Assembly (NCBI RefSeq): GCF_014191375.1
Contig: NZ_JACHWN010000009.1
Location: 186,001-250,000 of the forward strand
DNA from: Mesorhizobium sp. RMAD-H1
Lineage (GTDB): Bacteria > Pseudomonadota > Alphaproteobacteria > Rhizobiales > Rhizobiaceae
Reading direction: 5' to 3'
DNA length: 64,000 nt
Positions 36,905-61,329 of this stretch are shown piece after piece. The position numbers and the translations under genes are program-made. Each line of letters begins with the position of its first letter. Within the stretch, counting starts at the first letter, position 1. Below the pieces are notes generated by a model. It was not told the origin of the DNA. It ran no database searches and was given only the letters and a program-made list of their open reading frames with translations.

Positions 36905-36942
36905 AGCACGCTTCTCCTGCGAATATATATTCCATCGCAGCA

Positions 36943-36964
36943 ATAGAGCGGGCGGCTTGCGCGA
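36943..36964 (-). promoter_or_regulatory. Flagellar operon box, motA copy
   Basis: Read leftward, TCGCGCAAGCC is followed directly by GCCCGCTCTAT, ending 38 bp before the motA start. The first half is identical at 10 of 11 positions to the fliF and flhA boxes; the second half is more diverged. A rightward copy lies 24 bp away for the opposite operon. Confidence 0.65.
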
Positions 36965-36987
36965 AGCTTGCATCGGTCTGGCCAGCT

Positions 36988-37009
36988 TCGGGCAAGCTTC
37001 CCGGGCGAC
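36988..37009 (+). promoter_or_regulatory. Flagellar operon box, DUF1217-flgF copy
   Basis: TCGGGCAAGCT is followed directly by TCCCGGGCGAC, ending 42 bp before the DUF1217 start. The first half differs at one position from the fliF/flhA boxes. It faces away from the motA copy. Confidence 0.62.
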
Positions 37010-37051
37010 AAATGCTGCCATCGATTGAAGGGGCTATTCGAGGGCAGCGGC

Positions 37052-37840
37052 ATGGTCGACACAATGACGAGCTATCGCCTGATCGCGTCCAACATGACGC
37101 GATCGCTGGCGCGCGTATCACAGGAACCGCTGGTCGAGCGGGAGACGGCTTATTATCTCGAGAATATCGAAAAGGTGAAATCGATCGACGATTTCATGGC
37201 CGACGACCGCCTCTACCGCTACGCCATGAAGGCCTATGGGCTGGAGGATATGGCCTATGCCAAGGCCTTCATCCGCAAGGTCCTGACCGAGGGCGTGAAG
37301 GATAGCGACAGCATGGCCAACACGCTGGTGGACAAGCGCTACAAGGAATTCGCCACCGCCTTCAATTTCGTGGAGCTGGGCGACAAGACGACCGCATCCA
37401 CCGAGGCGAAGCAGGGCGTCGTGGACAAATATACCCGCCAGACGCTTGAGGAGGAGGCGGGCGAACAGAATGAGGGCGTGCGCCTTGCGCTCTATTTCCA
37501 GCGCAAGGCACCGAAACTCACCAACGCCTATGAAATCCTCGGCGACAAGGCGCTGCTCCAGGTGGTGCAGACGGCGCTCGGCATACCGGCCTCGGTTTCT
37601 CAAGCCAATATCGACAGGCAGGCGGCGATGATCGAGGAGCGTCTCGACATAGCGTCGCTTTCGGATCCGGAAGAGCTGTCGAAATTCCTGACCCGCTTCA
37701 CCGCGATGTACGAGATAAACAACCCCTCAGCGGGCAGCGCATCCTCGATCGCCTCGCTGCTTCTGGGCGGTACGTCCTCGGTGGGGATCTCCACCGATAT
37801 CCTGACGACGCTTCAATCCTTCAAACTCGGCGGCAGGTGA
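37052..37840 (+). CDS. DUF1217 family protein
   Basis: The 262-aa protein matches DUF1217, a family located next to flgF in flagellar clusters of Rhizobiales. It is largely helical and soluble, with SYRLIASNMTRSLARVSQEP at the N-terminus and repeated short motifs of the RLYRYAMKAYGLEDMAYAKAFIRKVL type (in outline) typical of the family. Function is unknown; the conserved position before flgF-fliI suggests a rod or export role. The start at 37052 has AGGG at good spacing; Met5 (37064) is an alternative. Confidence 0.85.
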   Translation: MVDTMTSYRLIASNMTRSLARVSQEPLVERETAYYLENIEKVKSIDDFMADDRLYRYAMKAYGLEDMAYAKAFIRKVLTEGVKDSDSMANTLVDKRYKEFATAFNFVELGDKTTASTEAKQGVVDKYTRQTLEEEAGEQNEGVRLALYFQRKAPKLTNAYEILGDKALLQVVQTALGIPASVSQANIDRQAAMIEERLDIASLSDPEELSKFLTRFTAMYEINNPSAGSASSIASLLLGGTSSVGISTDILTTLQSFKLGGR

Positions 37841-37847
37841 TCGATCC

Positions 37848-38573
37848 ATGCAGAATTCCATCTATGTCGGGCTTTCCTCGCAGATAACGCTGGAGCGCCG
37901 GCTCGACGCCATCGCCAACAATGTCGCCAACATGTCGACGCCCGGATTTCGCGGCGAGGGCACGAAATTCGATACGCTCGTCTCTATGAAGGCGAGCGAC
38001 GATGTTCATTTCGCTTCGGCTGGAAAGAGCTATATCCGCACTGAGCCGGGGCCGGTCATCCAGACGGATAATCCGCTCGACGTCGCGGTGAAGGGCGATG
38101 CCTGGCTGTCGCTCGCCACGCCGCAGGGGCAGGTCTATACGCGCGACGGGCGGATGCGGATGACGCCCGATGGTGAGCTCGTCTCCGTCATGGGCCACCC
38201 GGTCCTCGATCCGGGTGGCCAGCCCATCGTCATCAATCCCAATGGGGGAGCGCCGAAAATCTCTTCTGACGGCGCGATCTACCAGAACGGCGCCCAGGTG
38301 GGCGGCATCGGCCTCTTCTCGATCGCGCCCGATGCGAACCTCACCTATGCCGGGAATTCCGCCGTCATCCCGGATGTCCCGGCGCAGCCGGTGATCGATG
38401 ATGCCGGCGTCGGCGTGGTCCAGGGGGCGATCGAGGGCTCCAATGTCGACGGAGTGACAGAAATGACGCGGCTGATCAGCGTCAGCCGTGCCTTCGAACA
38501 GGTGGATGCGCTCCTTCGCCAGCAGGAAAACACGCTTACTGAAGCGGTCAAGACGCTCGGCTCGAAGGCGTGA
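37848..38573 (+). CDS. flgF: Flagellar basal-body rod protein FlgF
   Basis: Proximal rod component, exported by the type III gate. The N-terminal rod motif is LSSQITLERRLDAIANNVAN (residues 7-26) and the C-terminal coil includes ALLRQQENTLTEAVKTLG. 241 aa fits FlgF. Its stop overlaps the start of fliI (TGATG). Confidence 0.93.
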   Translation: MQNSIYVGLSSQITLERRLDAIANNVANMSTPGFRGEGTKFDTLVSMKASDDVHFASAGKSYIRTEPGPVIQTDNPLDVAVKGDAWLSLATPQGQVYTRDGRMRMTPDGELVSVMGHPVLDPGGQPIVINPNGGAPKISSDGAIYQNGAQVGGIGLFSIAPDANLTYAGNSAVIPDVPAQPVIDDAGVGVVQGAIEGSNVDGVTEMTRLISVSRAFEQVDALLRQQENTLTEAVKTLGSKA

Positions 38574-39946
38574 TGGCAATCGACACCGACGTACTCGCCT
38601 CGACGGCTCGCCTGCCGCTGGAGCGGCTGGCGGCCTTTGTCCGCCGCGAATGCGCCGCGCCTTCGCCGCTTACCGGCATCGGCGGCACGGTCCGCGATGT
38701 CTCGCGTTCGGTGATCGCGGTGCGCGGCATGTCGCATTCGGCAAAGCTCGGCGATGGCGTGCTCATGCGCTGCGGCGACAGGCTGCATCGCGGTGAGGTG
38801 ATCCGCGTTGCCGAAAACCACGTGCTGGTGAAGCCGTTCGACGATCGCGCGGTGCCGGTGCTTGGCGCGCCGGTCTTTCCCGACGGTACATTGCGCATCG
38901 CGCCTTCGCTGGAATGGAAGGGCAGGGTCATCGACGCGCTTTGCTCACCGCTCGACGGCAAGGGACCGCTCGTGCCTGGTGGCGAGCAGATGCCGCCGGA
39001 CCGCCCGCCGCCAGCCGCGATGCAGCGTGCGCGAGTAGCCAAGGCATTGCGCACCGGCGTCAATGTCATCGATATCTTCACGCCGATGTGCTTCGGCCAG
39101 CGCCTGGGCATCTTCGCCGGATCGGGCGTGGGGAAATCGACGCTGCTCGCCATGATGACGAAGGCCGCGGATTTCGACACCGTGGTGCTGGCGCTGACGG
39201 GGGAGCGCGGACGCGAAGTGCGCGACATGCTCGAAGACACCATGGCGGGCAAGCTTGAAAAGACTGTCACGGTGGTCGCCACCAGCGACGAGAGCCCGAT
39301 GATGCGCCGGCTCGCGCCCAACACCGCCACGGCGATCGCCGAATATTTCCGCGACGGGGGCGAGAACGTTCTTCTGATCGTCGATTCGGTGACGCGCTTT
39401 GCGCATGCCGCGCGTGAAGTCGCGATCGCGGCGGAAGAACCGCCCGTCTCGCGCGGCTATCCGCCCGGTGTCTTCAGCCAGCTTCCGCGCCTCCTCGAAC
39501 GGGCCGGGCCGGGCGGGGAAGGTGGCGGCACGATCACGGGCATCTATTCGGTGCTCGTCGATGGCGACGACCATAACGATCCAGTCTCGGATGCCATACG
39601 CGGCACGCTCGACGGCCACATCGTGCTGGAGCGTGGCATCGCGGCGCAGGGCCGCTTTCCGGCGGTGGATATCCCAGCCTCGGTTTCGCGCCTTGCCCAA
39701 CATGGCTGGACGTCCGAGCAGAAGAAGCTCGTCACGCAATTGCGTGGGCTGATCGCCCGTTTCGAGGAGACGCGCGATCTCCGCGCCATCGGTGCCTATC
39801 AGCCCGGCAATGATGCTTTCCTCGATCAGGCGGTGACGCTTGTGCCGAAGATCTACGAAGCCATGCAGCAGACGCCCGATACGCCCGTTTCGACCGATCC
39901 CTACAATGATCTTGCTGCCGCGCTGCGCGGCAAGGAGAGCGCATGA
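38573..39946 (+). CDS. fliI: Flagellum-specific ATPase FliI
   Basis: The ATPase of the flagellar export apparatus, homologous to the F1 beta subunit. Walker A GSGVGKST lies at about residues 183-190, Walker B NVLLIVDSVTRFAHAAREV follows, and the catalytic Glu motif is GERGREVRDMLED. 457 aa. The start at 38573 overlaps the flgF stop and the end overlaps the next gene by 4 bp, so the four-gene unit is translationally coupled. No fliJ follows, although that is the usual partner. Confidence 0.96.
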   Translation: MAIDTDVLASTARLPLERLAAFVRRECAAPSPLTGIGGTVRDVSRSVIAVRGMSHSAKLGDGVLMRCGDRLHRGEVIRVAENHVLVKPFDDRAVPVLGAPVFPDGTLRIAPSLEWKGRVIDALCSPLDGKGPLVPGGEQMPPDRPPPAAMQRARVAKALRTGVNVIDIFTPMCFGQRLGIFAGSGVGKSTLLAMMTKAADFDTVVLALTGERGREVRDMLEDTMAGKLEKTVTVVATSDESPMMRRLAPNTATAIAEYFRDGGENVLLIVDSVTRFAHAAREVAIAAEEPPVSRGYPPGVFSQLPRLLERAGPGGEGGGTITGIYSVLVDGDDHNDPVSDAIRGTLDGHIVLERGIAAQGRFPAVDIPASVSRLAQHGWTSEQKKLVTQLRGLIARFEETRDLRAIGAYQPGNDAFLDQAVTLVPKIYEAMQQTPDTPVSTDPYNDLAAALRGKESA

Positions 39947-40521
39947 GCCGCGAAGAAAAGAAGAACGTTCTGCCGGTTGCCGAATCGGCGCCCTGGCCGG
40001 TCGCACCGGCAAAGAAGATCGATGGCTATCTGAAGGCAGCAGGCGTGGCGCTCGCCGCGGGCTGCGCCATGCTGCCCTTCATCGTCTATCTGGAACGCAG
40101 CGATCCGACACCGCCGCAAAGCGCCGCGCAGAAGGATGTCCGCGATCCGCTGGACAGGTCGAACCAGACGGTCTTTCGCCGGATGAACCCGTTCGCGCCG
40201 TCCGAGACCGCCGCCGCGAAGCCGGAACTCGATCCCAATCCGACAGGGGCCACCATGTCGAACGGCAAGGGACAGCCGCGTACGCCCGGCGCAGACGAAA
40301 CCTCGCCCGAAAAACAGCCTTTCCCGGCAAAGCCGGTGTTCCTGCTGCGCGAGGTGGTCGGCGGCATGGCGATGATCGAGGACAGCACCGGCTACTGGTT
40401 CGTGGAAAAGGGCTCGCTGCTGCCCGATGGCAGCACGCTCGTCGCGGTCAGCCGCAGCGAAGGAGCCGGCACATGGCAGCTCAAGACCTCCACCGGCGAT
40501 GTGATCGAGCAGACGCAGTAG
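39943..40521 (+). CDS. Single-span membrane protein after fliI, function unknown
   Basis: A 192-aa protein with one membrane helix (about 30-49, AAGVALAAGCAMLPFIVYLE), a long disordered Pro/Ala/Lys-rich linker (55-125) and a compact C-terminal domain (about 127-190; LLREVVGGMAMIEDSTGYWFVEKGSLLPDG). The C-terminal part looks like a small beta domain facing the periplasm. It overlaps fliI by 4 bp. I do not recognise it; it is not FliJ, which is a cytoplasmic coiled coil. A role in export or in anchoring near the basal body is inference from position. Confidence 0.75.
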   Translation: MSREEKKNVLPVAESAPWPVAPAKKIDGYLKAAGVALAAGCAMLPFIVYLERSDPTPPQSAAQKDVRDPLDRSNQTVFRRMNPFAPSETAAAKPELDPNPTGATMSNGKGQPRTPGADETSPEKQPFPAKPVFLLREVVGGMAMIEDSTGYWFVEKGSLLPDGSTLVAVSRSEGAGTWQLKTSTGDVIEQTQ

Positions 40522-40601
40522 GACTTGGGGGCGCCTCCATGCGCCCTCGTCCTTCGGGACTCGTTGCGCCCGCAGCTCAGGATCAGGCTCGGCCACAAGT
40601 C

Positions 40602-40623
40602 TCGCGCAAGATTCGGGGCGTAG
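40602..40623 (+). promoter_or_regulatory. Flagellar operon box, flgB copy
   Basis: TCGCGCAAGAT is followed directly by TCGGGGCGTAG, ending 44 bp before flgB. A CtrA-like TTAA-N7-TAAA element follows at 40625-40639. Confidence 0.62.
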
Positions 40624-40667
40624 GTTAACAAACCATAAACGGGGTAACAGGCGGAAGATTCAGAATC

Positions 40668-41048
40668 ATGGGGCCGATTCATCTCTTCGATCTCGCTTCG
40701 CGGCAGGCGCAGTGGCTTTCCGTGAAGGAGGCAGCGATTTCGAGCAATGTGGCGAATGCCAATACGCCGGGCTTCAAGGCACGGGACGTGGATCCGTTCA
40801 GCGATGTCCTGGAAAAGACGCAGCTCAGCATGGCGGCGACCGACCCGCACCATCTGGAAGTCGACGCGACCGGGATCACCGCCATCCAGATGCGCCAGAG
40901 GGATGTGGCCGAGACGACCCATTCCGGCAACACCGTCAGCATCGAGCAGGAAATGATGAAGGCCGGCGAAGTGAACCGCGATTTCTCTCTCAACACCAGC
41001 ATCGTCAAGGCGTTTCACCGCATGATGCTGGCCACGGTGAAGGGCTAA
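40668..41048 (+). CDS. flgB: Flagellar basal-body rod protein FlgB
   Basis: Proximal rod subunit, 126 aa. The N-terminal rod motif EAAISSNVANANTPGFKARD is at about residues 22-41, and the C-terminal helix ends in SIVKAFHRMMLATVKG. First gene of a ten-gene basal-body operon; flgC starts 3 bp after its stop. Confidence 0.95.
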   Translation: MGPIHLFDLASRQAQWLSVKEAAISSNVANANTPGFKARDVDPFSDVLEKTQLSMAATDPHHLEVDATGITAIQMRQRDVAETTHSGNTVSIEQEMMKAGEVNRDFSLNTSIVKAFHRMMLATVKG

Positions 41049-41051
41049 GCC

Positions 41052-41471
41052 ATGGCCGATCCGATCATCAGCGCGTTGAAGGTGGCGGCATCGGGCCTCG
41101 ACGCGCAATCCACCCGGTTGCGCATCGTCGCCGAGAATATGGCGAATGCCCAGTCGACCGGTAAGACGCCCGACGCCGATCCGTACCGGCGCAAGACCGT
41201 CTCCTTCCGGACGGAACTCGAGCGCAGCACGGGCACGCAGGAGGTGCGAGTCGCCGAGGTCGGCACCGATTCCTCGCCCTTCGTCGAGGAATATGATCCG
41301 AGCCACCCCGCGGCGGACGCAAGGGGCTACGTCAAATATCCCAATGTCAACATGGTGGTCGAAATGGCCGACATGCGGGAGGCGAACCGTTCGTATGAAG
41401 CCAATCTCCAAGTGATCAAGCAGGCCCGCGAGATGATCGCCATGACCATCGACCTTTTGAGGAACTCGTGA
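41052..41471 (+). CDS. flgC: Flagellar basal-body rod protein FlgC
   Basis: Rod subunit of 139 aa with [20 protein letters not shown] (about 21-40), the FlgC landmark [16 protein letters not shown] and the C-terminal [19 protein letters not shown]. The stop overlaps the ATG of fliE. Confidence 0.95.
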
Positions 41472-41821
41472 TGATCGATTCTTTGTTGAGTGTTTCCACC
41501 CGTAACGCCCTGTCGAAGCTGTCCGAAAGCGTCAACGAAACGGGATCGAGCGGGATCACCATTGCGCCGGCCAATCCGCCGGCCGTTCAGCCCGCGGTGG
41601 GTGAAGCGTCGTTTGGCGACGTGCTGTCGCAGCTGACGGGATCGATGACCGACAAGCTGAAGAATGCCGAGGCGATGTCTATCTCGAGCATGACCGGCGA
41701 CGTGCCGACCCGCGAGGTGGTCAACTCCGTGATGGAGGCCGAGCAATCGCTCCAGACCGCCATCGCCATCCGCGACAAGATCGTCCAGGCCTATCTCGAG
41801 ATCAGCCGCATGCAGATCTAG
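41471..41821 (+). CDS. fliE: Flagellar hook-basal body complex protein FliE
   Basis: FliE joins the MS ring to the rod and is the first protein exported. The 116-aa sequence has a hydrophilic N-terminus and the conserved C-terminal helices [20 protein letters not shown] and [13 protein letters not shown]. The ATG at 41471 overlaps the flgC stop (TGATG); the GTG one codon earlier is ignored. Confidence 0.94.
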
Positions 41822-41874
41822 GCATTCGGGCTGGGCGCGTCGCCTGATCAGAAACACCATCTCCGGGAAACATC

Positions 41875-42663
41875 ATGAAAGCGCTCACCATCGCCGCGAC
41901 CGGCATGAATGCCCAGCAGCTCAATCTGGAAGTCATCGCCAACAATATCGCCAATATCAATACGACCGGGTTCAAGCGGGCGCGCGCCGAGTTCTCCGAC
42001 CTGATCTATCAGGCGGAACGCACGGCCGGCGTGCCAAGCCGCGCCAATCAGAACATCGTGCCGGAGGGCGCTCTGGTCGGGCTCGGCGTGCAGACGGCGG
42101 CGGTGCGCAACCTGCACATCCAGGGCAGCCTTACCCAGACCGGCAATCCGCTCGATGTGGCGCTGACCGGCAATGGCTGGTTCCAGATCCAGAGCCCGAC
42201 AGGCGAAACGTTCTACACCCGGTCCGGCGCCTTCAACAAGAACGCCGACGGGCAGCTCGTCACCATCGACGGAAATCCGGTCGAGCCGGCGATCACCATT
42301 CCGCCCGATGCGGTGGAGGTGACGATCACGGAATCCGGCCAGGTCTTCGCCAAGCTCCAGGACCAGATCCAGCAGGTCGACCTCGGCCAGCTGACGCTCG
42401 CCAATTTCACCAATGAGGCGGGGCTCGAACCGCTCGGCAACAATCTCTACCGCGAGACGGAAGCCTCTGGCGCGCCGATCGTCGGCGTTCCAGGCGATCC
42501 GGGCTTCGCCACTTTGACACAGCGCTATCTCGAGGCTTCCAACGTCGATCCGGTCAAGGAGATCACCGACCTCATCACCGCGCAGCGTGCCTATGAGATG
42601 AACTCCAAGGTCATCCAGGCGGCGGATGAAATGGCGGCTGTCGTTTCGAAAAACCTGCGCTGA
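41875..42663 (+). CDS. flgG: Flagellar distal rod protein FlgG
   Basis: The main distal rod protein, 262 aa. N-terminal [20 protein letters not shown] (residues 7-26), central [17 protein letters not shown] and C-terminal [20 protein letters not shown] are typical FlgG landmarks. A 53-bp gap after fliE shows no operon box, so it is probably read through from flgB. Confidence 0.96.
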
Positions 42664-42674
42664 GGAGGGCAAAG

Positions 42675-43163
42675 ATGGCTTTGGCGGAAGTGCGGCGGAA
42701 AATGGTTCGGCTCGGAACGGCGGCAACTGCGGTCATTGCAGCATTTATCTGCGCATCCGCCGCCCACGCGGACCGGATCGCGTTCGTGGTGCCGTCGGCC
42801 GTCATCTATCCGGGTCAGGTTGTGGGCGATACGGCGCTTCTGGAAAAGACCTTCACCATCCGCCCGGAAGCGGCGCAGCAATATGCGCTGTCGCCGGACC
42901 AGGTGGCGGGGAAGATCGCGCGGCGCACGCTCCTGCCGGGAAAGCCGATCCTTATCAATGCGCTGAGCGAACCGTCGCTGGTGCAGCGCGGCGTGCCCGC
43001 ACCTCTAGTCTATACCGCCGGCGGGTTGATGATCACTGCCATGGGAACGCCGCTGCAGGCGGGGTCGGCGGGCGATTTCATCAAGGTACGCAATGTCGAT
43101 AGCGGCCTGATCGTCTCCGGGACGGTCATGGCCGACGGCAGGATACGGGTGGGAATGCAGTGA
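42675..43163 (+). CDS. flgA: Flagella basal body P-ring assembly protein FlgA
   Basis: A periplasmic chaperone for P-ring assembly. A signal peptide occupies about residues 1-32 (TAATAVIAAFICASAAHAD) and a SAF domain follows, ending in KVRNVDSGLIVSGTVMADGR and VGMQ. 162 aa, near the short rhizobial form. A strong GAGGAGG precedes the ATG. The stop overlaps the GTG start of flgI. Confidence 0.92.
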   Translation: MALAEVRRKMVRLGTAATAVIAAFICASAAHADRIAFVVPSAVIYPGQVVGDTALLEKTFTIRPEAAQQYALSPDQVAGKIARRTLLPGKPILINALSEPSLVQRGVPAPLVYTAGGLMITAMGTPLQAGSAGDFIKVRNVDSGLIVSGTVMADGRIRVGMQ

Positions 43164-44380
43164 AGCGGCTCTCTACCGCCTTTATCGCGCTTTTGGTTGG
43201 TGTATCGCCACTGCTGGCGGACGAATCCGCGCGCAATGCCCGGGATTTCGATTCCGCCGCCAAGGCCGATGCGGATTGGCTTGGCTCGGGCGGCAGCCCT
43301 TCTAAAATGGCCTATTCCGATCTCGGCAAGGGCGGCGTCGTGGCCCGGCTGAAGGATATCGCCACCATCCAGGGCGTGCGCGAGAACCAGCTGGTCGGCT
43401 ATGGTCTCGTCATCGGGCTGAAGGGATCTGGCGATTCCCTGCGCAATTCGCCCTTCACCGAGCAGTCCATGCGCGCCATGCTCGACAATCTGGGCATCAG
43501 CGCGCCGAGCGGCGCGACGCGCTCAAAGAATACCGCGGCCGTGATCGTGACTGCCAACCTGCCCGCCTTCGCCGGGGCAGGGTCGCGCATCGACGTGACG
43601 GTCTCTTCGCTGGGCGACGCCACGTCGCTGCAGGGCGGTACGCTGGTGATGACGCCGCTGGCGGGGGCGGACGGCGAAATCTATGCCGTCGCGCAAGGCA
43701 ACATGATCGTCTCCGGCTTCACCGCCGAAGGTCAGGCGGAAACGCTGACGCAAGGCGTGCCGACCAGCGGACGCATTCCCAACGGCGCGCTGGTGGAGCG
43801 CGAGGTGAAGGGCAATTTCGGCAGGGAAGGCGAGTTGGTCGTCGAATTGCGCGACCCCGATTTCACCACCGCCATCCGCGTCACCGATACGATCAACATC
43901 TTCGCCAAGCGCCGTTATGGCCAGCCGGTGGCGAAGGAACGCGACGCCAAGTCGATCCGGCTGCGCAAGCCGAAGAACGTGACGGCCGCCCGTTTCCTGG
44001 CGGAGATCGAGGGGCTGCCGGTGGCGACCGACGAGGTTGCCCGGGTCGTGGTCGACGAGCGCACCGGGACGGTCGTGATCGGCGACAAGGTGCGCATCTC
44101 GAAGGTCGCCATCAGTCATGGCAGCCTGACCGTGCGCGTCACCGAGACGCCTGTCATCTCGCAGCCGGAGCCGTTTTCCGATGGCGTGACGGCGCTGGAG
44201 CCGACGACCGATATCACGGCGGAGGAACAGCAGTCGCAGATCGGCGTGCTTTCCGGCACCAATCTGGAGAACCTCGTCAAGGGGCTTAACCAGATCGGGG
44301 TGAAGCCGACCGGGATCATCGCGATCCTGCAGGCGATCAAGACATCCGGCGGGTTGCATGCGGAACTGGTGGTGCAATGA
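43160..44380 (+). CDS. flgI: Flagellar P-ring protein FlgI
   Basis: Forms the P ring in the peptidoglycan layer. The GTG start at 43160 overlaps the flgA stop. A signal peptide (MKRLSTAFIALLVGVSPLLA) opens the 406-aa protein, followed after a longer-than-usual spacer by the family core ARLKDIATIQGVRENQLVGY (about 57-76) and GLVIGLKGSGDS. C-terminal LNQIGVKPTGIIAILQAIK is conserved. Confidence 0.96.
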   Translation: MKRLSTAFIALLVGVSPLLADESARNARDFDSAAKADADWLGSGGSPSKMAYSDLGKGGVVARLKDIATIQGVRENQLVGYGLVIGLKGSGDSLRNSPFTEQSMRAMLDNLGISAPSGATRSKNTAAVIVTANLPAFAGAGSRIDVTVSSLGDATSLQGGTLVMTPLAGADGEIYAVAQGNMIVSGFTAEGQAETLTQGVPTSGRIPNGALVEREVKGNFGREGELVVELRDPDFTTAIRVTDTINIFAKRRYGQPVAKERDAKSIRLRKPKNVTAARFLAEIEGLPVATDEVARVVVDERTGTVVIGDKVRISKVAISHGSLTVRVTETPVISQPEPFSDGVTALEPTTDITAEEQQSQIGVLSGTNLENLVKGLNQIGVKPTGIIAILQAIKTSGGLHAELVVQ

Positions 44381-45659: not shown

Positions 45660-45666
45660 GGTTGGC

Positions 45667-47915: not shown

Positions 47916-47940
47916 GCGGGCTTAAAAAGCGGGGGGCAGG

Positions 47941-47969
47941 GGGACCGTGTGGGGGGCACGGTCCCTTTC
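47941..47969 (+). terminator. Rho-independent terminator after fliC
   Basis: GGGACCGTG (47941-47949) and CACGGTCCC (47958-47966) are perfect arms around a G-rich loop, followed by a short T run. It separates flagellin from the fliF operon. Confidence 0.85.
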
Positions 47970-48015
47970 CGTGTTTATGGCTATTCGTAAGGCGGAACGT
48001 TTCCCACTCTAACTT

Positions 48016-48037
48016 CGCGCAAGCTTCGCTCGCTATG
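48016..48037 (+). promoter_or_regulatory. Flagellar operon box, fliF copy
   Basis: TCGCGCAAGCT is followed directly by TCGCTCGCTAT, an 11-bp-period imperfect direct repeat that ends 30 bp before fliF. In Brucella the fliF promoter is a known FtcR target, which makes this the best anchor for calling the box an FtcR site. Confidence 0.72.
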
Positions 48038-48067
48038 GTCGCCATGAAATGATGGCGGCAGGATGCG

Positions 48068-52894: not shown

Positions 52895-54216
52895 CGATCA
52901 ACGATATCCTTCCGCAGATGGCACGCCCTCCCGCACGCCAGGCGCATGCAGAGACGCAGAAATCCAAATCCGCGCTCGCATCGACGGACGAGAATGCTGT
53001 TGAAGGAAAGATAGCAGCGAGCTTCGAAACGCTGGTCAAGGAGATCACGGGCAAGGCGGAGAAGCGAAGCGGCCGGACGGCGGAAGTCGAGGATGCCGAT
53101 ACCGGGCATGCCAAAGACGATACTCCGCCCGACTCCAAAGAGCAGGGACCGGTTTCCGCCATTGCCACCCAGGCAATGCTTGCGTTCGGTCCTTTTCGCG
53201 TCAGCCACGCCGAGGCGGCGGTTGCGTCCGGAGATGCGGCGGGTGCGTTGGTTGAAGATGCCCGGAACTCCGGAAAGCGGGAAGCACCGCTTCCGGACAT
53301 GGATGAAGAGATACGGCTCGGCGAAAGCGCCGACACACAGGCACAGAAGGCAAAGGCCGAGGGGGAGACGGGGAAGAACGCCGACATGACGGGGCATTCT
53401 CCCGAGGGCCGGCCTGCGGCCGATCGCCCGGTGCCGGATCCGTCGTCGAGGCCGAATAATGAAGACAAAACGTCCGTTGCGACTGACGCCAAGCCTCCGA
53501 TGGCTCCATCGGCAGGTGGCGACGGAACGCGCGGGGAAGCCGGCGATAAGGACGTCAAGCCTGCCGCCCCGCGGCCGGATGCGGGCGCGGCGACACAAGG
53601 GCGCGGCAGCGAGGCTCCCGATAGCGGGATATTGCAGCAGGCCACGCAGGGCCGCACCAGCGGCGCCGGCAATCCGCCCGGCCCGGCGGATGCGGCAGCC
53701 AATCCGTCAAGGCCGGCCATGCGTATCGCCGATGTCGAAATCGTGTCTGAGCGCAGCTATGGCGCGACGAAGACACTCAATATCCGGCTGCAGCCCGTCG
53801 ATCTGGGGACGGTGACCGCGCGGCTGCGGCTCGTTCCCGACGGCATGCAGGTGGAACTGGTGGCCGACAGGCGCGATACGGCGGAGCGGCTTGCCGCCGA
53901 TCGCGACATGCTCAGCACAGCGCTGCGGACGGCGGGATTCGACGACAAGGCCGTCCTCTCCATCACGGTGACGGAACGCGGGCAATCCTCAATGGCGAAT
54001 ATGTCGGGCAATCAGGCGGGGCAGCAGAATTTCGCCGCGCAGGATCAATCCGCCGGACGCCATGGAGCGCATTCGCAGGCCAACATGCAGGGAGAGGGGA
54101 ATGGCAATCGGGATCAGCGCGGAGGCTGGGGCGCGGACGAGCCGGTGGGGGGCACACCGTCTTCGACCGGCGATGCGCGTGACGGCCGCCCTCTGTCTCG
54201 CGGTCTTGTCGTCTAG
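52891..54216 (+). CDS. fliK: Flagellar hook-length control protein FliK (MotD)
   Basis: FliK acts as the molecular ruler that stops hook growth. Most of the 441 aa are Gly/Ala/Pro/Asp-rich and disordered. The C-terminal hook-length domain (about 280-360) has LNIRLQPVDLGTVTARLRL and the following LRTAGFDDKAVLSITV. In Rhizobiales this gene is historically called motD. It overlaps motC by 4 bp and the next gene by 44 bp. Confidence 0.9.
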   Translation: MTINDILPQMARPPARQAHAETQKSKSALASTDENAVEGKIAASFETLVKEITGKAEKRSGRTAEVEDADTGHAKDDTPPDSKEQGPVSAIATQAMLAFGPFRVSHAEAAVASGDAAGALVEDARNSGKREAPLPDMDEEIRLGESADTQAQKAKAEGETGKNADMTGHSPEGRPAADRPVPDPSSRPNNEDKTSVATDAKPPMAPSAGGDGTRGEAGDKDVKPAAPRPDAGAATQGRGSEAPDSGILQQATQGRTSGAGNPPGPADAAANPSRPAMRIADVEIVSERSYGATKTLNIRLQPVDLGTVTARLRLVPDGMQVELVADRRDTAERLAADRDMLSTALRTAGFDDKAVLSITVTERGQSSMANMSGNQAGQQNFAAQDQSAGRHGAHSQANMQGEGNGNRDQRGGWGADEPVGGTPSSTGDARDGRPLSRGLVV

Positions 54217-54742
54217 CGCCCTTGCGCTCGGTTCAGTGCCGGCGCGGGCGGAAAATGTCTGCGAGCGGGAGATGCACAGGGCCGCCGCCAGATACGGGGT
54301 TCCGATCGGCATCCTCTATGCGGTCGGCCTGACGGAGACGGGGCGGAAGAACTCGCTGCAGCCCTATGCCATGAACATCGAAGGCAAGGCGGAGTTCTAT
54401 CCGACGGCCTCAGCGGCCCTCTCGCGCTTCGAGCAGGTGAGGCGTGGAGGCGCCAAGCTGATCGATCTCGGCTGCATGCAGATCAACTATTATTTTCATG
54501 GAGAGGCGTTCTCCTCGGTTGCAGAGATGCTGATGCCGAGCGCCAATGTCGACTATGCCGCGCGCTTCCTGAAGCAGCTCCGCGCCCGCGAGGGCAACTG
54601 GACCCTCGCCGTCGCCCGTTATCACGCCGGGCCCAACAACGATCCGGCCCAGAAGAGATATGTCTGCCGGGTCATGCAAAACATGGTGGCGACGGGCTTT
54701 GGAAACTGGACTCCCCAGGCCCGGAACTTCTGTCAGGCCTAG
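54173..54742 (+). CDS. Periplasmic lytic transglycosylase (flagellar operon)
   Basis: A 189-aa exported SLT-type enzyme that cuts peptidoglycan glycan strands, probably to let the rod pass. The signal peptide (MRVTAALCLAVLSSSALALG) begins at the ATG at 54173, 44 bp inside fliK. The catalytic Glu lies in VGLTETGRKN, with GCMQINYYFHG and VARYHAGPNN also conserved. It corresponds in position to the orf38-type transglycosylase of rhizobial flagellar clusters. Enteric flagella use FlgJ for this; no flgJ was seen here. Confidence 0.88.
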   Translation: MRVTAALCLAVLSSSALALGSVPARAENVCEREMHRAAARYGVPIGILYAVGLTETGRKNSLQPYAMNIEGKAEFYPTASAALSRFEQVRRGGAKLIDLGCMQINYYFHGEAFSSVAEMLMPSANVDYAARFLKQLRAREGNWTLAVARYHAGPNNDPAQKRYVCRVMQNMVATGFGNWTPQARNFCQA

Positions 54743-54978
54743 CCTGGTAACATATTGTTATGAATCGTGAAAACCGGTGTCCGTTAAAGTTTTATAAAGC
54801 TTTGCGCCCCTATTGATGCGATAGCCGAAGAGCCCTGCTTTTTCTTCTGTCTGTTATTTCGAATATTCTAATACATATCCTCATTAGTTGCTCCCAATAA
54901 ATTGGGATTGCTGCCGAGTCATCGCGCCAGTTAGTTGTTGCTCCCAAGGGGTAACATACTGATTCGGAAGGCGGGCCG
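54743..54978 (+). promoter_or_regulatory. Complex control region upstream of ftcR
   Basis: AT-rich for this window and dense in elements. It holds TAACA-TAT-TGTTA (54748-54760); a CtrA-like TTAA-N7-TAAA (54784-54798); TCGAATATTC (54859-54868), shared with the vjbR upstream region; GTTGCTCCCAA at 54887-54897 and again at 54937-54947; and CCCAAT-AA-ATTGGG (54893-54906). Several regulators appear to meet here. No tandem flagellar box is present. Confidence 0.6.
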
Positions 54979-55662
54979 ATGATCGTGGTTGTGGACGAGC
55001 GCAATCTAGTTACGAGTGGGTATTCTGCCTGGTTCGGGCGGGAAGGAATTTCAACGACGGGCTTCTCTCCGACCGATTTCGGCGATTGGGTCGATACGGT
55101 TCCGCAGAGCGATATTCTTGCGGTTGAAGCTTTTCTGATTGGCGAATGCGCCAATCGCAATCATCTTCCTATCAAGATCCGTGAACGGTGCTCGGCTCCG
55201 GTCATCGCCGTCAGCGAGACCCAGTCGCTGGAGCGCACGCTGGAGCTGTTCCAGTCGGGGGTCGACGATGTGGTCCGCAAGCCGGTCCATGTCCGCGAGA
55301 TCCTGGCGCGTATCAATGCCATCCGCCGGCGTGCGGGCGCGGATGGCTCAAGCGCCCAGGCGGGAACCCAGGTCGGTCCGATCCGGGTCTTCTCGGACGG
55401 GCGCGATCCGCAGATCAATGGGGTGGAATTCCTGCTGCCGCGTCGCGAGCGGCGCATCCTCGAATATCTCATCGCCAATCGCGGGCGCCGGCTGAACAAG
55501 ACGCAGATCTTCAATGCGATCTACGGCATCTTCGACGCGGAAGTCGAGGAGAACGTGGTGGAAAGCCACATCAGCAAGCTGCGCAAGAAACTGCGGGAAG
55601 CGTTGGGATACGATCCCATCGATTCAAAGCGCTTCCTCGGCTACTGCATCAATATCGAGTAG
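54979..55662 (+). CDS. ftcR: OmpR-type flagellar master regulator FtcR (Rem)
   Basis: The 227-aa protein has a degenerate receiver domain (1-115) and a winged-helix DNA-binding domain (about 130-225; [35 protein letters not shown]). The receiver starts [20 protein letters not shown] and lacks the usual Asp at the phosphorylation position, so activity may be controlled by amount rather than phosphorylation. The sequence closely matches Brucella FtcR and is the counterpart of Rem, which activates structural flagellar operons. It is a single-gene unit. Confidence 0.92.
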
Positions 55663-55737
55663 TCGTCCTCCGGCCGGCTGCATATCGGCCGGTCCAAACT
55701 GCTTTCCCAAAAAATGAGTGCTCCCGGAGCGACAGGT

Positions 55738-55759
55738 TCACGCAAGCGTCGTGAGCTAG
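55738..55759 (+). promoter_or_regulatory. Flagellar operon box, flgE copy
   Basis: TCACGCAAGCG is followed directly by TCGTGAGCTAG, ending 35 bp before flgE. Each half differs at only two or three positions from the flhA box. Confidence 0.66.
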
Positions 55760-55794
55760 TCTCGATTCCGGAATCCTCATATCAGGAGATGGAA

Positions 55795-57045
55795 ATGAGC
55801 CTTTATGGGATGATGCGTACCGGCGTTTCGGGCATGAACGCCCAAGTCAACCGTTTGTCGGCCGTCGCTGAAAACATCGCCAATGCCAGTACCGTCGGCT
55901 ACAAGCGCGCCAGCACACAGTTCGCCTCGCTCGTACTGCCCAGCTCCGACGGGCAGTACAATTCGGGAAGCGTCAAGACCGATGTGCGTTACGGGATTTC
56001 CGACCAGGGCGGCATCCGCTCCACGGCATCGTCGACGGATCTGGCCATTGACGGAAACGGTTTCTTCGTCGTCAGCAATGCGGACGGCACGCCTTACCTG
56101 ACCCGCGCAGGCTCCTTCGTGAAGGATGCCGAGGGCAATCTCGTCAACACAGCCGGCTACTATCTCATGGGCTACCCTGTCGTCGACGGCCAGGTGAACA
56201 GTGTCGCCAACGGCTTTCAGGGCCTCGAAAAAATCAACATAGAGCAGATGGATCTGATCGCTGAGCCCAGCCGGACCGGCACGTTCACAGTCAATCTGCC
56301 GGCAAATGCCGAAACCGCCGGCACGCCGCTGCCCACGGACAATGCTGCGGATTCGAAATATACCGCCAAGACCTCGCTTGTTTCCTACGACAATCTCGGC
56401 AATCCCGTTGTCCTCGACGTCTATTTCAGCAAGACCGCCGATAATGAGTGGCAGGTCGCGGTCTATGATGCCGCGGGGCGGGCGGCTAATGGCGGCTTCC
56501 CCTATGCGTCCGGTCCGCTGACGAGCTCCACCATGACGTTCGACGCAACGACGGGCAAGCTCACATCGGACGGCAATCTGGAGATCGACATTCCGGGCGG
56601 CCAGACGCTCGATCTCGATCTCTCGGCAACCAAGCAGCTTGCAGGGGACTATACCGTCTACAAGGCGATAATCGACGGCCGGTCGCCGAGCGCGATCGAA
56701 AGCGTCGACATCGGCGCCGACGGCTCGGTGGTCGCCCGTTACGAGAATGGCACCCAGCGCGAAATCTACCGCATCGCGCTCGGCAATGTGGCCAGCCCTG
56801 ACCAGATGAAGGTCATAAGCGGCAATGTTTTCGCGCCGACCGGCGAATCCGGCGACGTCCAGCTCGGTTTTCCGAAAAGCGGCGGCCTGGGCAGCATTTC
56901 TTCAGGCGCATTGGAGGAATCCAATGCCGATATCGCCGAAGAGCTCACCGAAATGATCGAAGCACAGCGCAGCTACACCGCCAATTCCAAAGCCTTCCAG
57001 ACAGGCGCGGATTTGATGGACGTGCTGGTCAACCTGAAAAGATAG
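55795..57045 (+). CDS. flgE: Flagellar hook protein FlgE
   Basis: Hook subunit, 416 aa. N-terminal GVSGMNAQVNRLSAVAENIA and C-terminal SNADIAEELTEMIEAQRSYT are the conserved axial ends; the middle is variable. The start at 55795 follows AGGAG; the frame open to 55714 would include the promoter box. First gene of a seven-gene operon. Confidence 0.95.
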   Translation: MSLYGMMRTGVSGMNAQVNRLSAVAENIANASTVGYKRASTQFASLVLPSSDGQYNSGSVKTDVRYGISDQGGIRSTASSTDLAIDGNGFFVVSNADGTPYLTRAGSFVKDAEGNLVNTAGYYLMGYPVVDGQVNSVANGFQGLEKINIEQMDLIAEPSRTGTFTVNLPANAETAGTPLPTDNAADSKYTAKTSLVSYDNLGNPVVLDVYFSKTADNEWQVAVYDAAGRAANGGFPYASGPLTSSTMTFDATTGKLTSDGNLEIDIPGGQTLDLDLSATKQLAGDYTVYKAIIDGRSPSAIESVDIGADGSVVARYENGTQREIYRIALGNVASPDQMKVISGNVFAPTGESGDVQLGFPKSGGLGSISSGALEESNADIAEELTEMIEAQRSYTANSKAFQTGADLMDVLVNLKR

Positions 57046-57076
57046 CCCTTCCGATGGGGGCGGGATTGGATAGAGG

Positions 57077-58549
57077 ATGTCACTAAGTTCTGCATTGCTT
57101 ACGGCTCAGAGTTCACTCAGCGCTACGTCGAAGCAGACGGCGCTGGTATCGCGGAACATAGCCGGCGCAAGCGATCCAAACTATGTCAAGCGCACGGGAT
57201 CGCTGGTTTCAGGACCCTATGGCTCGGTCTATGTGAACATCGGCCGTTCGGCTGATGAGGCGCTGCTGACACGCTACATCCAGGCCAACAGCCAGAACGC
57301 ATCGTCGAGCACGCTCGCCGCGGGTCTCGATCGCCTATCCTCGCTCTATTCGGCGGATGATTATTCAGGCTCGCCCGCGGCCCTCATCGGCGATCTGCGG
57401 GATGCGCTGCAGGCCTACGCCACCCAGCCAAGCCAGAGCACGTCGGCTGGCGACGCCGTCATCGACAAGGCCGTGGCGCTCGCCAATGCGCTCAACGAGG
57501 GCACGTCCCAGATCCAGAAGCTGCGGGCCGATGCGGATGCCGACATCGCCACTTCGGTCGACAGCATCAACGAGCTGCTGGCGAAATTCGAAGAGGTCAA
57601 CAGCAGCATCGTCAACGGCACGCGGTCGGGCGCCGACGTCTCGGATTTTCTCGACCAGCGCGATTCGATCCTGAAACAGCTTTCGGGCGAGATCGGCATC
57701 ACCACCATGACGCGGGCCGACAACGACATGGTGATCTTCGCCGAAACCGGCGTGACGCTGTTCGAAAAAACCGCGCGCAAGGTGAGTTTCGAGCCGACGA
57801 CGGCCTTTGCGCCGGGCACCAGCGGCAACAATGTCTATGTGGATGGCGTGCCGCTCTCGCACGGCACCTTCGAACAGCCCTACGGGACCGGACGGCTGAG
57901 TGGTCTGCTGCAATTGCGCGACCAGATCGCGCCGGATTATCAGAGCCAGCTCGACGAGATCGCCAGGGGCCTCGTCACCCTGTTCTCGGAAACGGACCAG
58001 ACATCCTCCGGCCTGCCGTCGATCACCGGCTTGTTCAGCTATTCCGGTTCGCCTGATGTACCGGCGGATGGAACGCTCGTACCCGGCATAGCGGGGACGA
58101 TTCGGGTTCCTTCCGCCTATATCCGTTCCGAAGGCGGCAGTGCGGAGCGGCTGCGTGACGGGGGCGGGCCGGACAACAATCCGGCCTATGTTTACAACAC
58201 GGAAAACGCCGCAGGCTTCTCGGCCCGCCTGCAGCAGCTGATCGGGCTCGTTTCCGAGCCGCGCGCCTTCGACCCTGCAGCCGGCGCGGGAGTGAACTTG
58301 AACATCATAGACTACAGCACGGCTTCGGCCGGCTGGCTCGAAGGCAAGCGCAAGGCAGCTGCGGATAACAGCGCTTATAATTCGACCGTTTCGTCGCGCG
58401 CGGAGCAGGCGCTTTCCAACGCCACCGGCGTCGACATCAACGAGGAGATGGCCCTTCTTCTCGAACTCGAACAATCTTTTCAGGCATCGAGCCGGGTCCT
58501 GACGACCATCGGATCGATGCTCGACGATCTCCTCAATGCGGTGAGGTAA
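57077..58549 (+). CDS. flgK: Flagellar hook-filament junction protein FlgK
   Basis: HAP1, which joins hook to filament. 490 aa. The N-terminal axial motif is SSALLTAQSSLSATSKQTAL, and the C-terminal is VDINEEMALLLELEQSFQAS, then SRVLTTIGSMLDDLLNAVR. flgL starts 3 bp after its stop. Confidence 0.94.
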   Translation: MSLSSALLTAQSSLSATSKQTALVSRNIAGASDPNYVKRTGSLVSGPYGSVYVNIGRSADEALLTRYIQANSQNASSSTLAAGLDRLSSLYSADDYSGSPAALIGDLRDALQAYATQPSQSTSAGDAVIDKAVALANALNEGTSQIQKLRADADADIATSVDSINELLAKFEEVNSSIVNGTRSGADVSDFLDQRDSILKQLSGEIGITTMTRADNDMVIFAETGVTLFEKTARKVSFEPTTAFAPGTSGNNVYVDGVPLSHGTFEQPYGTGRLSGLLQLRDQIAPDYQSQLDEIARGLVTLFSETDQTSSGLPSITGLFSYSGSPDVPADGTLVPGIAGTIRVPSAYIRSEGGSAERLRDGGGPDNNPAYVYNTENAAGFSARLQQLIGLVSEPRAFDPAAGAGVNLNIIDYSTASAGWLEGKRKAAADNSAYNSTVSSRAEQALSNATGVDINEEMALLLELEQSFQASSRVLTTIGSMLDDLLNAVR

Positions 58550-58552
58550 GCC

Positions 58553-59602
58553 ATGAAAGCCCAGTCCGTTTCGTCCTACGCCCTTTCCAACGCCTTGCGT
58601 TCGGTCGTCTCCAAGGCGCAGACGGAATTGCTGAAAGCGCAGCAGGAAGCGACCACAGGCACCGTTTTCGACGTGGGCCTGGCGCTCGGCGCCCGTTCCG
58701 GCCAGACGATATCGCTGCGCAAGGAATACGATCGGCTGACCTCGCTCACCGAGATGAACAACCTGATCTCCGAGCGGATGAAGACCTCGCAGACGGCGAT
58801 CGAAAACGTCGTTGACGGGGCGCAGGATTTTCTGGTGAACCTGACGGGGGCAACCTCGGCCGAGGGAGGAAAGATCACGATCGTCGAGAGCGCCAAGTCG
58901 GCACTCCAGACGACTACCGGTCTTCTCAACAGCACTTACGCGGGCGAATATATCTTTGCCGGTGTGAACACCGACGTCCGGCCGGTCGGCGATTATTACG
59001 CCGACGACAGCGCGGCCCGAACGGCGATCAGGACTGCGTTCGAAACCCATTTCGGATTTGCGATGGACGATCCGCAGGTGGCCGATATTTCCGCCGCCGA
59101 GATGGAAACGTTTCTCGACACGGCGTTCGCCGACGAATTCAACGAGACGAACTGGAGCAGCAACTGGTCCTCTGCCTCGAATACGGTGATCAAGAGCCGC
59201 ATCGCGCCGACAGAACTGGCCGAGACATCGGTCAGCGCCAATGCGGAAGGTTTCCGCAAGACGATGATGAGCTACACCATGATCGCAGAACTCGGCGGTA
59301 TCGGCCTCAATGACAACGCCTTTTCCGCCTTGATCGACAAGGCCCTCGCCACGACGACCGAGGCGATCGGGTTGGTTTCCCAGTCGCAATCGACGCTCGG
59401 CATTGCGCAGGCGCGTACCACCGGTGCCAACACGCGCATCGCGGCCCAGCTCAATATTCTCAACACCTCGGTCCGCGATCTCGAAGCCGTCGACCCCTAT
59501 GAGGCGGCGACGCGCGTCAGCGCGCTGACGTCGCAGATCGAGACCTCCTATGCGATGACGGTCAGGCTCATGGGGATGAGTCTGCTCAACTACTTGAAGT
59601 AA
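58553..59602 (+). CDS. flgL: Flagellar hook-filament junction protein FlgL
   Basis: HAP3, 349 aa, flagellin-like at both ends (YALSNALRSVVSKAQTELLK; AATRVSALTSQIETSYAMTV). A 73-bp gap to flaF follows and contains TTAAC and TTTAAG motifs that might be a separate promoter. Confidence 0.93.
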   Translation: MKAQSVSSYALSNALRSVVSKAQTELLKAQQEATTGTVFDVGLALGARSGQTISLRKEYDRLTSLTEMNNLISERMKTSQTAIENVVDGAQDFLVNLTGATSAEGGKITIVESAKSALQTTTGLLNSTYAGEYIFAGVNTDVRPVGDYYADDSAARTAIRTAFETHFGFAMDDPQVADISAAEMETFLDTAFADEFNETNWSSNWSSASNTVIKSRIAPTELAETSVSANAEGFRKTMMSYTMIAELGGIGLNDNAFSALIDKALATTTEAIGLVSQSQSTLGIAQARTTGANTRIAAQLNILNTSVRDLEAVDPYEAATRVSALTSQIETSYAMTVRLMGMSLLNYLK

Positions 59603-59675
59603 ATTCCGGAAGTAATACTCAAGGAACTTAACGCGAATCTTTAAGTATTGTTTTCCTGCAATACCCGGAGAAGAA

Positions 59676-60020
59676 ATGTATCAACTGCGCTATGAAGATG
59701 TGATGAACGAAGATGCAGCGAGCGCCAAGGAGCGCGAGCGTCTGCTCTTCGATCGTTCCATCGAAATGCTTAAAGCTGCCCGCGAGCACGGCGCATCTTC
59801 ACGGGCAGGCATCGACGCCGGCTATTTCGCTCTGCGGCTATGGACGACGCTGATCACGGATCTGGGCAGCGAAGAAAACGTGCTGCCGAAAGAGCTCAAG
59901 GCGGCCATCATCTCCATCGGCCTCTTCATCCTCAAGGAACTGGAACGGATCAGGCAGGGCGAATCCGACGATTACGATTCCATCATCGATATCACCCGAA
60001 CAATCAGGGATAGTCTTTGA
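59676..60020 (+). CDS. flaF: Flagellin synthesis regulator FlaF
   Basis: A 114-aa cytoplasmic protein of the FlaF family ([40 protein letters not shown]). In alphaproteobacteria FlaF is required for flagellin secretion or synthesis and works opposite FlbT. GGAGAAG precedes the ATG. flbT begins 1 bp after the stop. Confidence 0.93.
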
Positions 60021-60021
60021 G

Positions 60022-60492
60022 ATGGCAAAAGAGAAGGCACCGGCATCCGGGAATATCATGCGCCTCTCGCTGCGGGCGGGCGAGAAAATCTATATCAACG
60101 GCGCGGTGCTGCGCGCCGACCGCAAGGTTTCGCTCGAACTTCTGAATGACGCGACCTTCCTCCTGGAGAATCATGTCCTCCAGCCCGAGCAGACGACGAC
60201 ACCGCTGCGCCAACTCTATTTCACGGCTCAGATCATGCTCATCAATCCGGCGATCGCGGCGCAGGCGCGGGAAACCTTCAAAGCGATGCTGAAGGCGATG
60301 CTGAACACGTTTGAAGATGCGGAGGTCCTTAAAGGGCTGAAGCTTACCGATGAGCTCGTGCATCAGGGCCGGGTGTTCGAAGCACTGAAGACGCTGCGCG
60401 GACTTTATCCCATCGAGGCGCGGATCATGGGCGGGGACGAAGCCCACCGTGAGTCCAAATTTCTGACCCAGGCTTCGGAGGCCGTGGCATGA
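60022..60492 (+). CDS. flbT: Flagellin translation regulator FlbT
   Basis: The 156-aa protein has the FlbT core [20 protein letters not shown] followed by [20 protein letters not shown]. FlbT binds the flagellin mRNA leader; it represses flagellin in Caulobacter and acts positively in Brucella. The likely target is the 47055-47114 leader. It overlaps flgD by 4 bp. Confidence 0.94.
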
Positions 60493-60920
60493 CGACGACA
60501 CCCAGCGTTTTCAATCCCACCACCAACACCAATGCGACGACCAACACCAGCACGTCGGCATCCAGCAGCAACACGGCTGCAGCGGCGGCGACGGCGGATT
60601 ACCAGTCCTTCCTGAAGCTTCTTGTCGCGCAGATGAAGAACCAGGACCCGACGCAGCCGATGGATTCCACGCAATATGTCACGCAGCTCGCGACATTCTC
60701 GAATGTCGAACAGGCGGTGCAGATGAACAGCAAGCTCGATCAGCTTCTAGGCAGCTTCTCGCTTTCGCAAGCCGACGGCCTGATCGGGCGCACCGTCACG
60801 AGCGCCGACGGGAAGATCAGCGGCGAAGTGAAATCCGTCCGTATCCTGCAGGACGGCATGGTCGCGAAACTCGCCGACGGCACCGAACTGCCGATCACGA
60901 CAGGCGTCACGATAAGCTGA
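60489..60920 (+). CDS. flgD: Flagellar hook capping protein FlgD
   Basis: A short FlgD (143 aa) with the conserved N-terminal core [20 protein letters not shown], then [20 protein letters not shown]. It has only the beginning of the C-terminal tudor-like domain, as usual in rhizobia. The Asn/Thr/Ser-rich start (residues 5-35) is low complexity. Confidence 0.93.
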
Positions 60921-60944
60921 GCCGGCACAGCAAAGGGCGGGGCG

Positions 60945-61211
60945 ATGAACGAAGCGGATGCGCTCGACATCATCAATTCGGCAATCTGGACGGTTCTCGC
61001 CGCCAGCGGCCCCGCCGTGCTGGCCGCCATGATCGCCGGCATCGGCATCGCGCTATTCCAGGCGCTGACGCAGGTGCAGGAAATCACACTCACCTTCGTT
61101 CCGAAGATCGTCGTGATCTTCGTGGTGCTGGCCTTTACCGCGCCATTTGTCGGCGCGCAGATCAATGCGCTGACGCTTCTTACCTATTCGCGCATCGAAA
61201 AAGGTTTTTAA
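60945..61211 (+). CDS. fliQ: Flagellar export gate protein FliQ
   Basis: An 88-aa protein with two membrane helices (GPAVLAAMIAGIGIALFQAL; KIVVIFVVLAFTAPFVGAQI) and the conserved TQVQEITLTFVPKI between them. It packs around FliP in the export gate. Last gene of the flgE operon. Confidence 0.95.
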   Translation: MNEADALDIINSAIWTVLAASGPAVLAAMIAGIGIALFQALTQVQEITLTFVPKIVVIFVVLAFTAPFVGAQINALTLLTYSRIEKGF

Positions 61212-61280
61212 GCCGCTCCTTTTCGCGGATATCGAGCGGAAAATCGCTTCGCATTTCCCACCTTCTCCTTGAGCAAATCC

Positions 61281-61302
61281 TCGCGCAAGCTTCGCGAGCT
61301 AT
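61281..61302 (+). promoter_or_regulatory. Flagellar operon box, flhA copy
   Basis: TCGCGCAAGCT is followed directly by TCGCGAGCTAT, ending 27 bp before the flhA start. This is the copy in which the two 11-bp halves are most alike and with the fliF copy it defines the consensus. Confidence 0.72.
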
Positions 61303-61329
61303 TCTCCCGGATCATCACGGGAGAAGAAT

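Follow-up and report, generated by a model that had tools for sequence, protein, structure and literature searches.

A tandem 11-bp box joined to a putative -10 element precedes flagellar operons in Mesorhizobium sp. RMAD-H1 and is a probable composite operator-promoter for FtcR

Results

Six flagellar operons are preceded by a tandem box

We analysed a stretch of 64,000 nucleotides (nt) from Mesorhizobium sp. RMAD-H1 (NZ_JACHWN010000009.1, positions 186,001 to 250,000; hereafter the window), which carries a block of flagellar genes and the gene for the OmpR-type regulator FtcR/Rem. Pfam matches named motA, fliM (through the FliN C-terminal domain), fliG, flhB, the DUF1217 gene, motB, fliK, flaF, flbT, flgD, and fliE; the names fliF, flgB, flgE, and flhA were taken from a preliminary description of the window and agree with tblastn matches in relatives. 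Six operons are each preceded by a box made up of an 11-bp direct repeat and, in most cases, a TAnnnT element (Table 1). The ftcR gene itself is located downstream of the fliF box and upstream of the flgE box. All six boxes of the preliminary description are present in the sequence, five at exactly the coordinates given and the fliF box one base further upstream, at 48015-48036. The boxes were also said to end 27-44 nt ahead of the first start codon, which holds for the starts that we assigned by reading frame and ribosome-binding site, i.e., putative starts. The reported absence of a box from fliC and ftcR was likewise confirmed, since no upstream site of either gene in the window scored 10 or more. 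The direct repeat was confirmed, with a register shifted 4-5 bp upstream relative to that first described, so that the unit reads AAGCTTCGCGC; the CTAT in which the second half was said to end is part of the conserved TAnnnT element and stands outside the repeat. The two half-sites are identical at 8/11 positions in the motA box and at 7/11 in the DUF1217 box. These two boxes are divergent and stand 13 bp apart (window 36940-37012).

Table 1. Boxes with their presumed -10 elements and candidate regulator gene in the window, with the putative start codons used for the downstream operons
Feature	Position	Strand	Half-site 1	Half-site 2	-10 element	Matrix score	Start used
motA operon box	36940..36969	-	36969-36959	36958-36948	TA 36945-36944, last position without T	25.1	TTG 36904(-)
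DUF1217-flgF operon box	36983..37012	+	36983-36993	36994-37004		18.9	37052
flgB operon box	40597..40626	+	40597-40607	40608-40618	TAGGTT 40621-40626	24.7	40668
fliF operon box	48010..48039	+	48010-48020	48021-48031	TATGGT 48034-48039	29.8	48068
flgE operon box	55733..55762	+	55733-55743	55744-55754	TAGTCT 55757-55762	30.9	55795
flhA operon box	61276..61305	+	61276-61286	61287-61297	TATTCT 61300-61305	28.7	GTG 61330
ftcR (Rem/FtcR), OmpR-type regulator, candidate binder (Pfam Trans_reg_C 55.7 bits, cut-off 26.2)	54979..55662	+

The box occurs mainly at flagellar promoters

For scoring, a matrix of 30 columns was derived from 132 training sites of other species. The six boxes were the six best sites in the window and the only ones scoring at least 15; the next-best site scored 11.4 and lay inside a coding frame. 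Across 300 column-permuted matrices, a mean of 0.08 window sites reached 15, with a maximum of two. When the -10 columns were dropped, this coding site, at 18081 on the minus strand, outscored the fliF box (18.9 vs. 17.3), and the -10 is therefore needed for discrimination. Training on the six boxes themselves, as the preliminary description had proposed, gave a matrix that performed less evenly: in a leave-one-out run, in which the fliF site was misplaced by the wrong base, the left-out site ranked first for flhA and otherwise 6th, 6th, 7th, and 11th in the window.

The RMAD-H1 genome was searched by pattern and the matches were then scored with the matrix. One-mismatch matches occurred at 12 places, namely five of the boxes and seven others, compared to eight for the reversed control; the DUF1217 box needs two mismatches. 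The matrix scores of the five boxes were 24.7-30.9 and those of the seven other places 4.5-18.5. Among the latter, one match is within a 447-codon frame (L115), one has no long frame beneath it (L124), and one adjoins a frame that by eye resembles a relaxase (L119). In 1.56 Mb of relatives' loci, 246 sites scored at least 15 (the 132 training sites included) vs. approximately three from permuted matrices. For 204 of these, a recognised flagellar start followed within 20-300 nt, and 42 had no assigned start; the nearest downstream start was fliC-like for 10 of the 246. An exact pattern applied to 199 genomes was too strict, matching 21/50 genomes with an FtcR homologue and 25/149 without in any context, and promoter-centred scoring was used instead.

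The box is conserved upstream of orthologous operons

Relatives were taken as the best 80 of 579 loci by alignment of the FtcR homologue, with FtcR identities of 61-96%; the nearest among them was Paramesorhizobium deserti (96%). We sought the core TTCRCGCAAG in upstream stretches of 200 nt and found it with at most two mismatches at 48/48 fliF, 75/76 flgE, and 19/19 flhA genes, the sole flgE miss being L046. With zero or one mismatch, the core was present at 38 fliF, 74 flgE, and 19 flhA genes, vs. 3/56 for fliC, 2/80 for ftcR, and 1/76 for flgK; shuffled upstream stretches yielded matches with zero or one mismatch in about 1% of cases and with two mismatches in about 10-14%. Ten fliF sites with clear boxes were kept out of the training set solely because the distance to the start codon was too short to fit the fixed context. 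The box was also present at fliF in loci of the genus Brucella (L036, L038, L043, and L046).

The remaining classes behaved similarly. The motA boxes scored above 5 in all 30 relatives' loci in which motA was scored, 28 of them above 18 (motA was found in 33/35 genomes, three without a locus), and the flgB box scored at least 20 in 29/29 relatives. A DUF1217 box was found in 19 of the 26 relatives with a DUF1217 match; at the seven misses, a strong box still stood on the strand opposite motA. Box columns are conserved and flanking columns are not. The boxes thus precede orthologous operons in relatives, as the preliminary description had asked of a class II FtcR operator, and that reading is supported.

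The box combines a tandem repeat with a putative -10 element at fixed spacing

The tandem in the RMAD-H1 genome reads AAGCTTCGCGC followed by AAGCTTCGCnn. A consensus was drawn from 209 sites of six classes, in which a score threshold admitted 29/30 motA and 19/26 DUF1217 sites; it reads (A/C)AGCTTCRCGC, AAGCTTCGCnn, two unconserved positions, and TAnnnT. The period is 11 bp: in seven sites of the genome (the six boxes and one described below), the first eight bases recur at 39/56 positions at lag 11 (other lags 4-18). By profile autocorrelation, lag 11 was top in 5/6 promoter classes and in the mean profile, where it reached 0.89 and the next value was 0.02 at lag 16. The flgE class was the exception, with lag 15 (0.47) above lag 11 (0.36); by 9-mer identity, lag 11 was top in 6/6 classes.

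CAAG is kept in 204/209 sites, and TA follows 10 nt past it in 189. This spacing was also evident in sites selected on the core alone, with TA exactly 10 nt past the core in 37/38 fliF, 70/75 flgE, and 19/19 flhA sites (126/132 together). A TTGACA-like -35 hexamer at 16-18 nt from the -10 was not found, with five or six of six matches in 0/209 sites and four of six in 2/209. The fixed spacing of the tandem to TAnnnT, together with the lack of a -35 hexamer, indicates that operator and promoter form one unit. A promoter, which had been put forward as a rival to the operator, is hence no rival. Individual classes depart from the consensus: half-site 2 of the flgE and motA classes retains AAG but never TT (0/75 and 0/29), half-site 1 of the flhA class lacks A in 17/19 sites, T25 of the motA class TAnnnT is present in only 10/29, and TA stands at its usual place in 5/19 relatives of the DUF1217 class. 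The core of the box seems to be half-site 1 together with AAG.

The box tracks the FtcR-type flagellar system

Among 199 genomes of the order, RMAD-H1 included, an FtcR homologue was found in 50 and FliF in 146. FliF falls into two types, one matched at E 1e-114 or better in 41 genomes and a conventional type matched at approximately 1e-60 to 1e-76. All 41 genomes with the FtcR-type FliF (RMAD-H1 included) contain an FtcR homologue. We scored the upstream stretches of the 41 FtcR-type fliF genes and of 29 chosen conventional ones, and set aside seven of the own family, leaving 34. Of these, 27 outscored the best of the 29 conventional genes (Mann-Whitney p = 2e-9), one of them doubtfully, as its site overlaps the start (L244); 22/34 FtcR-type stretches beat all 20 of their own shuffles, vs. 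0/29 conventional stretches. This test is only partly independent, since some of the matrix training sites came from outside the Rhizobiaceae (e.g., Methylocella). Seven genomes hold both FliF types, and in the six scored (G035, G143, G119, G149, G175, and G180) the box is at the FtcR-type copy only. In 14 cluster stretches around fliF genes without a box and some others, there were 34 operator matches compared to about eight for permuted matrices, at least two of the 34 being training sites.

FtcR has a predicted OmpR/PhoB-type fold and an atypical receiver domain

The winged-helix domain of FtcR matched above the Pfam cut-off and the receiver domain below it. The structure predicted from 28 sequences (mean predicted local distance difference test score 87.5) has the fold of OmpR/PhoB regulators, and its fold-search matches include PrrA, CosR, PhoP, PmrA, and HP1043. 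Whole-chain superpositions were poor, with template modelling scores of about 0.4-0.5, as expected since the two domains vary in arrangement. By eye, the usual phospho-acceptor place reads AVEAFLIG, with Glu instead of Asp; the same position in relatives is Glu, Gln, Arg, or Asp. One study describes Rem as lacking this aspartate, active without phosphorylation, and a direct activator of class II genes (PMC9812332). For Brucella melitensis, binding of FtcR upstream of fliF has been reported (PMC9456535, citing Leonard 2007), and the ftcR mutant shows reduced fliF promoter activity and FlgE (PMC9456535).

A helix predicted at residues 193-209, by its place the recognition helix, is as conserved as CAAG is in the box. 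An apparent covariation by eye of residue 196 (Ser/Gly) with box letters was dropped because phylogeny confounds it. VisR had no match over the cut-off in the RMAD-H1 genome (VisN was not searched), and a gene for a LuxR-type regulator with an autoinducer-binding domain (window 30743-31534, plus strand) adjoins the flagellar block; the top of the cascade may therefore be of the quorum-sensing type rather than VisNR.

A seventh box lies beyond the window

A further box is found 607 nt past the window end, at C9:250607-250636 (L300:1608-1637), reading AAGCTTGCCGT and AAGTTTGGGCG, then GG and TAAAGT. Downstream of it are a flgJ-like gene, whose product has a Rod-binding domain, and a possible FlgN gene, whose match to FlgN stays below the threshold. 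Its score of 13.8 is below the threshold of 15, yet is the best in a 13-kb stretch. Of the 42 relatives' sites without an assigned start, 14 come from Brucella-, Ochrobactrum-, and Phyllobacterium-type loci, where they sit close to the 3' end and by position after flhA, and the seventh box is at the corresponding place in RMAD-H1. A AAGCYYCRCGCAAGCGTC-like box also recurs at about 7.5 kb in most of the Sinorhizobium/Ensifer loci (L066-L108), with no assigned downstream start.

Discussion

From sequence comparison, the box is very probably a composite operator-promoter of the class II flagellar operons, to which the OmpR-type regulator FtcR/Rem would bind as a dimer at the place of the -35. It has the tandem period of OmpR/PhoB-type operators, a linked OmpR-type winged-helix regulator in the genome, a class II placement that leaves out flagellin in the window, and a TAnnnT placed as in a housekeeping -10. 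FtcR would be the binder, TAnnnT the -10, and activation the effect. The two head-to-tail half-sites, on one face of the helix, would receive the FtcR/Rem dimer and, if TAnnnT is a sigma-70 -10, would span about -36 to -15. Since there is no -35 hexamer, FtcR would replace the -35 contact; RNA polymerase would thus be recruited to, or stabilised at, a promoter that is weak by itself.

Several observations weigh against this reading. The DUF1217 box of RMAD-H1 has no TAnnnT at the usual spacing, and TA is off its usual place in several families. A site near a mobile-element gene scores 18.5, vs. 18.9 for the DUF1217 box. Nine genomes that have no FtcR-type FliF nevertheless contain an FtcR homologue, a weak one in three cases (E ~1e-21). 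Of the 34 FtcR-type fliF genes outside the family, seven are without a box; among the 27 that outscore the conventional genes, five fail to beat their own shuffles. Co-occurrence also falls short of proof, as the box and the operons may have been inherited together. In addition, box-like matches occur at fliC (3/56) and ftcR (2/80) in a few relatives. Those at ftcR are about 136 nt before the gene in L055 and L056, and those at fliC are in L061, L065, and L086; autoregulation or a different operon order are possible explanations. Finally, the B. melitensis study gives TGTGGGCA as the FtcR motif from chromatin immunoprecipitation sequencing (ChIP-seq), with support from electrophoretic mobility shift assays (PMC9456535). 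Attributed to the same regulator, this motif differs from the box in being an 8-mer without a repeat. We rejected it as the operator of the window's flagellar operons, as the 64-kb window contains no exact copy; of eight genes checked, only DUF1217 and fliC have one-mismatch copies upstream.

Other explanations account less well for these findings. A dedicated alternative sigma factor, which without any activator would use the AAGCTTCGCGCAAG block for a -35 and TAnnnT for a -10, is highly unlikely: the spacing of block to TAnnnT is indeed fixed and the strong matches in the RMAD-H1 genome are all flagellar, but the conserved block is an 11-bp tandem and, at about 14-20 bp and ending 10 nt before TA, is by general knowledge long and close for a -35. 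Resemblance of TAnnnT to what we take to be an ordinary housekeeping -10 also counts against this proposal. That the boxes arose by chance, or by duplication of upstream sequence retained without function, is an idea that we consider extremely improbable. Upstream segments can be copied inside a cluster, and a single intergenic region holds both the motA and the DUF1217 box. On the other hand, box columns are conserved where flanks are not, permuted matrices never reached six window sites, and in relatives they gave about three sites compared to 246 (the 132 training sites included).

It is also very unlikely that the tandem is the operator of a regulator other than FtcR, such as CtrA, MucR, or the LuxR-type protein encoded next to the flagellar block. 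The LuxR-type gene does encode an autoinducer domain, but LuxR-type sites are inverted repeats, which tells against such a binder. In other bacteria, flagellar operons are activated by CtrA bound near -35, but its full site is TTAA-N7-TTAA, according to PMC6180460, and the box consensus has no TTAA. Conventional fliF copies in FtcR-holding genomes are, moreover, without the box. Nor is FtcR CtrA itself, as it scores 75.6 bits with the NCBIfam CtrA model vs. a cut-off of 350.

FtcR/Rem as the binder leads to a more specific and tentative proposal, which we regard as possible but doubtful. Without the usual phospho-acceptor aspartate, it might activate from within the promoter, where its dimer would cover about -36 to -15, abut the -10, replace the -35 contact, and perhaps bend the spacer, further downstream than known OmpR/PhoB activators. 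If so, the published 8-bp motif would not be the flagellar site of FtcR. In the searched literature, we found no other FtcR/Rem operator than the 8-bp ChIP motif, though Rotter 2006 or Leonard 2007 may describe one; the box has no counterpart in the available portions of PMC9456535, PMC8639532, PMC8429497, PMC10469942, PMC3616915, PMC6180460, PMC9812332, and PMC7617929. Likewise, no published transcription starts for these operons were found in the accessible parts of papers that map starts in S. meliloti and agrobacteria. FtcR/Rem is a flagellar master activator across a large group that includes nitrogen-fixing symbionts, plant pathogens, and relatives of Brucella. A sharp and transferable element makes the class II regulon predictable from sequence, as with the seventh site, and opens a direct experimental route to how a response regulator without the aspartate activates transcription.

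Several known systems resemble the box in part. Like the flagellar box, the pho box of PhoB has two direct 11-bp half-sites that replace the -35; it lies farther from the -10, judged by the TAnnnT register, and differs in sequence. HP1043 and CosR are phosphorylation-independent orphan regulators of the OmpR type that, as in FtcR, have an OmpR/PhoB fold without a working phospho-acceptor, and the fold matches of the FtcR model include HP1043 (2hqr) and DNA-bound CosR (8uvk, 8uvx). Unlike FtcR, they are not rhizobial activators of flagellar class II genes; the comparison made here is of folds. The CtrA-dependent flagellar promoters of Caulobacter and Rhodobacter (fla2), as described in PMC6180460, share with the box an OmpR-type regulator, two words (TTAA) 11 bp apart, activating sites near -35, a conserved A at -11, and divergent operons with independent sites. 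They differ in sequence (TTAA vs. AAGCTTC), and the flgB2 and fliI2 sites of Rhodobacter have, unlike the box, a 6-bp spacing (PMC6180460). The box is therefore of a known kind, a tandem operator of the OmpR type joined directly to a -10. It is sharply defined and widely conserved, and it conflicts with the motif published for the regulator that presumably binds it.

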